A stretch of 33,051 nucleotides of DNA, taken from NCBI GenBank assembly GCA_015295945.1, contig DVED01000168.1, positions 1 through 33,051 of the forward strand. The letters are read 5' to 3'. Under the pieces are notes generated by a model, which worked only from the letters and a program-made list of their open reading frames with translations, was not told where the DNA came from and made no database searches. Position 1 is the first letter of the stretch. Each line of letters begins with the position of its first letter. Position numbers and translations under genes: made by a program. Source of the stretch: Oscillatoriales cyanobacterium M59_W2019_021. Lineage in GTDB: Bacteria > Cyanobacteriota > Cyanobacteriia > Cyanobacteriales > Geitlerinemataceae. Below, in pieces: positions 17,816 through 19,413 of this stretch.

Positions 17816-19135
17816 ATGACCAATCCTAAAATCATCGTTCTCGACGACGACCCCACTGGATCGCAAACCGTCCATAGCTGCTTGTTGCTGACTCGGTGGG
17901 ACGTAGAAACCCTGCGAATTGGGTTAGCTGACGAATCGCCAATTTTCTTCATCCTCACCAATACTCGGGCACTAACCCCAGAAGAAGCCACCGCCGTCAC
18001 GCGGGAGGTGTGCCGCAATCTGAAAGTTGCCCTTGCCGAGGAAGGGATTACCGACTTTTTGGTGGTGAGTCGATCGGATTCCACCCTGCGGGGACATTAT
18101 CCCATCGAAACCGACGCGATCGCCGAAGAATTGGGTTCTTTTGACGCCCACTTCCTCACCCCCGCATTCTTTGAAGGCGGACGCTTCACTCGCGATAGCA
18201 TCCATTACCTGATGGTTAACGGCGTCGCTACCCCCGTCCACGAAACTGAATTCGCCCGCGATTCCGTCTTCGGCTACCATCACAGCTATCTCCCCGATTA
18301 CGTTGCCGAAAAAACCCAAGGAAAAATTCCGGCAAGTCAAGTGGAACGCTTTGTCCTCGACGATATTCGATCGGGCAGTTTAGATCGCTTGATGCAGCTA
18401 CAGGACAATCGTTGTGGCGTCGTCGATGCCGAAACCCAAGCCGACCTCGATCGCTTCGCTGCCGACCTCCGGGAAGCTGCCAGTCACGGCAAGCGGTTCC
18501 TCTTCCGCAGTGCCGCCAGTTTGCTAACTTCCCTCGCCAATTTGGGTTCGCAACCGATCGCCGCTGAAGCCATGTCCCAATACGTCCGGGGGGGCAAACC
18601 CGGAGCGGTTATCGTCGGTTCCCACGTCAAAAAAACCACGCAACAACTCGAATGCTTGTTACAGGAACCCAATACCGTCGGCATCGAAATCGACGTTTCC
18701 CATCTCCTCGACGACTCCCCCACCCAACGGGACACCCTGCTCAAAACCACATTAGATAAAATTGACACTGCCCATCAAAACAGCAAGACCCCCGTTATTT
18801 ATACCTCTCGCCAAGAACTGACCTTCCCGGATACCGAAACTCGACTGCAATTTGGGGCAGCGGTTTCGGCATTGCTGATGGATATCGTTCGCGCCTTACC
18901 CGAAGATATCGGTTTTCTAATTAGTAAAGGCGGGATTACGTCCAACGACGTACTCAGTACGGGTTTGGCTTTGCCCACGGCTCGACTGTTGGGTCAAATT
19001 TTGGCGGGTTGTTCCGTCGTCCGCACCCCTGACGACCATCCTCGATTCCCCAATCTTCCTGTGGTTTTATTTCCCGGAAATGTGGGTGATGAAACCGGAT
19101 TGGCAACCGTTTACCGACGGTTTTGCAAACTTTAA
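17816..19135 (+). CDS. Four-carbon acid sugar kinase family protein (DUF1537)
   Basis: This 439-residue kinase has the DUF1537 signature. The N-terminal sugar-acid-binding domain begins IIVLDDDPTGSQTV (6-19) and has SRSDSTLRGHYP near residue 85. The C-terminal nucleotide-binding domain has VIVGSHVKKTTQQ near 265 and SKGGITSNDVL near 370. Family members phosphorylate four-carbon sugar acids such as erythronate or threonate. In other bacteria they sit beside dehydrogenases, aldolases or isomerases of that pathway, but none is present here, so the substrate is open. The start ATG lies in CCAATGA-type repeats with no Shine-Dalgarno. The upstream five-codon ORF at 17802 ends as ATGA on this start. 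Confidence 0.88.
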   Translation: MTNPKIIVLDDDPTGSQTVHSCLLLTRWDVETLRIGLADESPIFFILTNTRALTPEEATAVTREVCRNLKVALAEEGITDFLVVSRSDSTLRGHYPIETDAIAEELGSFDAHFLTPAFFEGGRFTRDSIHYLMVNGVATPVHETEFARDSVFGYHHSYLPDYVAEKTQGKIPASQVERFVLDDIRSGSLDRLMQLQDNRCGVVDAETQADLDRFAADLREAASHGKRFLFRSAASLLTSLANLGSQPIAAEAMSQYVRGGKPGAVIVGSHVKKTTQQLECLLQEPNTVGIEIDVSHLLDDSPTQRDTLLKTTLDKIDTAHQNSKTPVIYTSRQELTFPDTETRLQFGAAVSALLMDIVRALPEDIGFLISKGGITSNDVLSTGLALPTARLLGQILAGCSVVRTPDDHPRFPNLPVVLFPGNVGDETGLATVYRRFCKL

Positions 19136-19161
19136 AATTCACAATCCTGAAGAAAGCGTGA

Positions 19162-19201
19162 AGACTCCGTATTAGGAAGTAACAGCCTGAAAACGGAGTT
19201 T
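19162..19201 (+). promoter_or_regulatory. Hairpin sequestering the ribosome site of the PatX-like gene
   Basis: ACTCCGT (19164-19170) pairs perfectly with ACGGAGT (19193-19199). One G-U and one A-U pair extend the stem to 9 bp, with a 22-nt loop. The right arm contains GGAG (19195-19198), the Shine-Dalgarno 5 nt before the ATG at 19204. The left arm also contains TCCGTA, one base from the TCCGGA core of DIF-class promoters, so a DNA role is an alternative. Confidence 0.5.
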
Positions 19202-19203
19202 CA

Positions 19204-19413
19204 ATGGTGCGAACTGTTACCCCTTTTTTATTCTCGAGTCTCGTTCTGGGTTCGATCGTCGGACTAACCGAATTCTCTATGCGCCCACAGGCGAATTTAC
19301 CTGCGGGTGCAGAGCAATTACACGCCCAAGCCGATCGCGGTGATGATGGTAGTCCTTATCGCGGCAGCAGCGGGCGACGAGTGTTGCGACAAACCCAAAC
19401 CTTGGACTCGTAA
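19204..19413 (+). CDS. PatX-like small signal protein with variant RGSSGR motif
   Basis: This 69-residue protein has a hydrophobic N-terminus (residues 7-22, FLFSSLVLGSIVGL) and a C-terminal DGSPYRGSSGRR stretch (residues 48-59). PatX proteins of filamentous cyanobacteria share exactly this plan: a hydrophobic N-terminus and an RGSGR pentapeptide that binds and restrains the regulator HetR. Here the motif is RGSSGR (codons at 19360-19377), with one extra Ser made by a repeated AGC. The Shine-Dalgarno GGAG is 5 nt from the ATG. HetR is not in the window. The assignment rests on architecture, size and motif context; the variant motif is the main doubt. Confidence 0.6.
   Translation: MVRTVTPFLFSSLVLGSIVGLTEFSMRPQANLPAGAEQLHAQADRGDDGSPYRGSSGRRVLRQTQTLDS

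Follow-up and report, generated by a model that had tools for sequence, protein, structure and literature searches.

The RGSGR-type motif normally acts to turn off HetR, a regulator of development; the locus described here raises the question of what becomes of a PatX-like protein whose motif is one residue too long. The window that we analysed (33,051 nucleotides) is the whole contig C106 of the genome of Oscillatoriales cyanobacterium M59_W2019_021 (4.99 Mb, 212 contigs, 99.99% complete). Translation of positions 19204-19413 on the forward strand gives MVRTVTPFLFSSLVLGSIVGLTEFSMRPQANLPAGAEQLHAQADRGDDGSPYRGSSGRRVLRQTQTLDS*, here named PatX-A, confirming the 69-residue open reading frame of the preliminary description together with its good ribosome site (GGAG at 19195-19198 on the same strand, upstream of the ATG), its hydrophobic N-terminus and the sequence SPYRGSSGRR near the C-terminus. 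The hydrophobic segment, encoded at 19204-19266 with an approximate boundary, is a presumed Sec signal; its best 15-residue mean hydropathy is 1.99, similar to that of PatX-A in relatives. The protein has no GES-like C-terminal end, unlike most PatX-A proteins of its family. The motif is encoded at 19360-19377 on the forward strand by CGC GGC AGC AGC GGG CGA, and the pair AGC AGC at 19366-19371, from which the extra serine had been proposed to come, is one codon longer than in the relative G013 and in the other PatX-A genes. Comparison codon by codon (CCT TAT CGC GGC AGC AGC GGG CGA CGA in the window, CCT TAT CGC GGC AGC GGA CGG CGC in G013) supports the proposed 3-bp slippage; since PatX of G013 reads RGSGR, the window motif can be read as a clean AGC duplication. 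Taken alone, the string RGSSGR is nothing special, being expected about 4.3 times by chance in six frames of an equally large genome when the window serves as the first-order model, whereas the synteny, the promoter and the PatX matches exceed chance.

We therefore consider how well the assignment to PatX holds. With the window protein as the sole query, PatX open reading frames were matched in 4 of the 13 other genomes of the family (E 0.004-0.024); one more, in G005, was rejected because it lay inside an unrelated frame of 1114 residues. The NCBIfam PatX model NF047413 gave the window protein 16.9 bits (E 0.0079), short of its cut-off of 30 bits, while the G013 ortholog scored 36.6, above the cut-off, and two RGGGR genes of genus g4 scored 28.4 and 22.1, below it. 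A profile of PatX-A gave E 8e-23, a value inflated because the window protein is one row of that profile. Judged by its sequence alone, the assignment would be borderline. It is the location that settles the matter: upstream, at 17816-19135 on the forward strand, lies a kinase gene with SBD_N and NBD_C domains (Pfam PF07005 and PF17042), and in G013, whose HetR is the closest among the relatives (85%), a kinase 78% identical to it directly precedes PatX (RGSGR) on the same strand, as in the window. The window gene thus shares its kinase neighbour, strand and promoter with an accepted PatX, and because it stands behind the kinase of the G013 patX, it is a true patX ortholog. The preliminary designation "PatX-like" stands on synteny, promoter and profile, and it falls short of the strict NCBIfam cut-off; its reliance on a relative with such an open reading frame at the same locus is borne out by G013. 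In seven of the eight loci of relatives that were looked at, patX follows a gene judged by eye to be oxidoreductase-like, to which the source genome has just weak partial matches. The idea that the window patX had moved was dropped, since G013 has the arrangement of the window. In other named genomes, a search of 80 of 288 loci for a pattern with a second Arg after the motif found no kinase-adjacent PatX.

The promoter region gives a further point of comparison. DIF1 (TCCGGA) is already known at patS and patX (PMC7377430, available text). In the window, a DIF1-type -35-like element, TCCTGA, differing from TCCGGA by one base, lies at 19145-19150 and is followed after 19 nucleotides by a -10-like element, TATTAG, at 19170-19175, both on the forward strand; both hexamers and the spacing are identical in G013. 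The whole element, TCCTGA-N19-TATTAG, sits 59 nucleotides upstream of the PatX-A start and is the sole TCC(G/T/C)GA-N19-TAWNAG site of the window on either strand. The other PatX-A genes of the family carry TCCTGA at -63 or -64 (10 of 13) or TCCCGA at -56 or -57 (3 of 13), whereas in random stretches of 140 nucleotides TCC(G/T/C)GA fell between -66 and -50 in 1.0% and TCC(G/T/C)GA-N19-TAWNAG occurred in 0.2%. Across 122 distinct PatX open reading frames, each with at least 80 nucleotides upstream, TCC(G/T/C)GA was present at -75 to -45 in 100, and in 92 it was accompanied by TA 18-20 nucleotides further on. The other 22 of the 122 have no such element, among them PatX-B (see below) in genus g57 and in two g4 genomes; it is therefore widespread in PatX without being universal, and the window gene has it in the TCCTGA variant. 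An inverted repeat, ACTCCGT ... ACGGAGT, spans 19164-19199, starting just 5' of the -10-like element and reaching the ribosome site, and predicted RNA folding around the PatX-A start codon (from 19176) was no better than that of shuffled sequences (z +1.0).

How unusual is the lengthened motif? Of the 388 genomes available for the order, 241 gave a match to a five-row PatX profile (E up to 1), and we read 124 places (30 loci and 94 stretches) chosen from the stronger of the matches listed. As L227, L228, L230, L231 and L232 repeat other places, 119 PatX places remained. Their best open reading frames carried RGSGR (89), RGGGR (11), RGTGR (6), RGEGR (1), RGNGR (1) or, in the window, RGSSGR (1), and at 10 places the motif was not found; among the matches listed, no lengthened motif besides that of the window occurred in the 119 places. 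For PatX-A, RGGGR was read in genus g4 (L027, L028, L031) and in g57 (L033, L140, L141, L153, L163, L168-L170), and RGEGR at L165. PatX is defined by an RG(S/T)GR pentapeptide in the available text of PMC7761841, and the RGSSGR of the window gene lies outside this definition, which is narrower than the family because RGGGR stands at 11 of the 119 places. Like PatX (NF047413; Nostoc PCC 7120 PatX, PMC12756182 and PMC7761841, as far as their available text goes), the window gene encodes a small protein with a hydrophobic N-terminus and an Arg-Gly...Gly-Arg near the C-terminus, and it has a DIF1-type promoter in a genome with hetR; it differs in its motif and in its score below the NCBIfam cut-off. 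RGSSGR did not occur in the accessible portions of the PatX and HetR literature searched. The g4 and g57 PatX-A genes with RGGGR or RGEGR are likewise changed at the serine site, with a canonical PatX-B in the same genome, but these substitutions keep the arginine spacing, whereas the window gene has an insertion. The PatX-like open reading frame at L207 (G357) carries RGSGR twice, once internally and once at the C-terminus.

Elhai and Khudyakov reportedly defined PatX in 2018, and the two PatX types that we call by the names PatX-A and PatX-B, coined here, may already have been described by them; no priority is claimed. The search of the source genome for other RGSGR open reading frames, which the preliminary description had suggested, did turn up a canonical gene of the patX type, on contig C31 (L277:2433-2510), so that RGSSGR is not the sole candidate ligand. 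Its product, PatX-B, has 25 residues and ends in PHRGSGR-stop (MRIYICLSQSRSLSIDILPHRGSGR-stop), an ending expected by chance 0.003 times per genome. The gene has TCCGGA-N19-TA at -61, with an exact TCCGGA, aligns with the longer PatX-B genes of relatives at promoter, start and end, and is convergent with a SWIM-type gene (named by eye), as in G002. The protein falls 31-34 residues short of its counterparts in length and does not have their hydrophobic stretch (hydropathy 0.81). PatX-B was found in all 14 family genomes examined, the source genome included. In another family, signal-less PatX-B-like open reading frames of 30 residues ending in PHRGSGR were seen at L213 (G206), L223 (G152) and L191 (G266), and in G266 a longer motif-less copy (HRGARRR) stands beside the signal-less canonical short one, a combination that resembles that of the source genome. 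PatS of Anabaena PCC 7120 has 13-17 residues and a C-terminal RGSGR (PMC7476756, available text); the C31 gene has the same form, being very short, signal-less and RGSGR-ended, but it encodes 25 residues and matches PatX-B in start, end, promoter and neighbour. Since it lines up with PatX-B and descent from patS is not seen, its likeness to PatS would be convergent at most. The window gene is not PatS-like. As judged from these comparisons, then, the window gene is PatX by descent with a motif outside the published one, in a genome that has a shortened canonical second gene.

The search for further canonical genes in the source genome gave little else. A CGN-coded pattern produced 79 sites, of which 26 encode RG(S/T)GR; all 26 were read in context by eye, and among them C31 alone looked like PatX, a statement that holds for CGN-coded motifs. 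The C31 gene was not reported when the PatX-A profile was run on the source genome. Searching for RG(S/T)GR-stop, which is expected by chance 2.7 times per genome, added C203, and in view of that expectation the short open reading frames at C112, C137 and C203 are most readily explained by chance. Those at C112 and C203 are antisense to long frames, and no TCCNGA-N17-21-TA was found within 700 nucleotides upstream of the C112 and C137 frames. The short intergenic frame at C137 (L266:268-315) encodes MMLKLFQDCERGSGR-stop; an ERGSGR-stop is expected 0.06 times. The frame resembles PatS and, although compatible with chance, may still be a gene of that type.

We compared the two types in the 23 genomes where both were read, 14 of the family and nine of the ten g57 genomes with a PatX-A read; for G368 (g57, 73% complete) no PatX-B was obtained. 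PatX-B has RGSGR in all 23, whereas PatX-A of the same genomes has RGSGR in 11, RGGGR in 10, RGEGR in one and RGSSGR in one. The difference in departures from RGSGR, 12/23 against 0/23, gives Fisher p 7e-5 in a test that ignores relatedness; because the genomes are related, the 12 departures correspond to about three independent changes. Nine genomes of genus g7 have a motif-less PatX copy; eight of them also yielded a canonical copy, and G328 yielded none. Neighbouring canonical and motif-less copies on one contig were seen there as L155/L144 (G263), L157/L172 (G310), L176/L173 (G345), L193/L180 (G101) and L195/L174 (G227).

The receptor is present: as the preliminary description had expected, the source genome has hetR, in a single copy on contig C195. 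In the Anabaena HetR complex (PMC4649674, available text), E253 is bound by the serine of ERGSGR and, together with D270' and D278', by its arginines; E254 and D256 hold the peptide N-terminus, and a distance is marked between R223 and the peptide C-terminus. The source HetR retains R223, E253, E254, D256, D270 and D278, as do those of 12 relatives and two solved sequences. These six peptide-contact residues are intact and so give no indication of a co-evolved pocket at the known sites; there the earlier proposal of one is unsupported. In G001 (L011, L285; 97% complete), PatX-A and PatX-B are both canonical, and HetR was found neither with the HetR_C model nor with the full protein. This inverts the published rule, by which genomes with HetR have PatX.

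Our preferred reading, to which we give about even weight, is that PatX-A of the window drifts, probably with weaker HetR binding, since PatX-B covers for it. PatX-A is a genuine patX ortholog with a conserved DIF1-type promoter and is probably exported, and because promoter and frame are kept, its gene is probably expressed. The 3-bp AGC duplication adds one serine to the HetR-binding motif, with the known HetR contacts unchanged. The peptide arginines, normally four residues apart on a beta-strand, are now five apart, and the processed peptide should therefore fit the HetR cleft less well; an added residue in a beta-strand should place the arginines on opposite faces. PatX-B, signal-less and under its own TCCGGA promoter, would supply the usual HetR inhibitor, and the lengthened motif of PatX-A may be tolerated because this canonical peptide is provided. 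We infer expression, export, processing, weaker binding and relaxed constraint alike. Against drift, 11 of the 12 departures of PatX-A are spacing-preserving substitutions (RGGGR, RGEGR), which may bind equally well, and PatX-A still reads RGSGR in 11 of the 23 genomes with both genes. In Nostoc, cytosolic PatX was inactive unless PatP was cytosolic too (PMC12756182, available text); since PatX there had to leave the cytosol, the signal-less PatX-B may fail to work as PatX does. A published result on Leptolyngbya BL0902, which is non-heterocystous, counts against every reading as a HetR ligand: PatX effects there were judged basically independent of HetR (PMC11298460, available text), so that HetR may not be the relevant target in the source organism.

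It is possible, though we put the chance well short of even, that RGSSGR is instead a working HetR ligand, bulged or register-shifted, with equal or tuned affinity and acting as an exported signal. PatX-A retains its promoter, frame, hydrophobic N-terminus and the flanking Pro-Tyr-Arg-Gly and Gly-Arg-Arg, and it is the only PatX-type protein with a hydrophobic N-terminus found for the source genome. However, the lengthened motif was met once in 119 PatX places among the matches listed, and the contacts in the crystal structure are set by the arginine spacing (PMC4649674, available text). Between a ligand of altered spacing and loss of function, two readings already proposed for this locus, we favour reduced function. 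That the gene is a decaying PatX heading for loss, with no function left, appears improbable: the altered motif, the low NCBIfam score (16.9 bits for a cut-off of 30), the missing GES-like end and the motif-less PatX copies elsewhere (10 of 119 places) would fit, but the kept promoter and frame argue against plain decay, as do the ribosome site and the exact spacing within the conserved promoter.

We think it similarly doubtful that the HetR inhibitor is split, with RGSSGR coming from the sole export-type precursor found and canonical RGSGR made only inside the cell, from a PatX that lost its signal and turned PatS-like; if so, signalling between cells would rely on one peptide and cell-autonomous inhibition of HetR on another, and the PatS-type gene on C31 would have arisen from PatX by one internal deletion. 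It is very improbable that HetR and its ligand changed together so that the source HetR prefers RGSSGR: 17 of its residues are absent from all 14 other sequences, two of them (E218 and G219) in a loop that is seen as disordered in the crystal of HetR with DNA (PMC4649674, available text), but the six published contacts are unchanged and the canonical RGSGR gene is still in the genome. A sequencing or assembly error is just as remote, for although the assembly is a draft of 212 contigs and genus g1 is known from one genome among the 14 of the family, the change is an in-frame 3-bp one in a short repeat and not in a homopolymer.

The source family has two patX-type genes in which the motif is held to different degrees. 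The C31 gene suggests that internal deletion within PatX can yield a short PatS-like gene with no signal, a point of interest for the origins of PatS-type genes. Serine changes are recurrent, whereas a different length was met at one of the 119 places, so that PatX may serve as a natural test of how strict HetR is, and RGSSGR and RGSGR are directly testable peptides.
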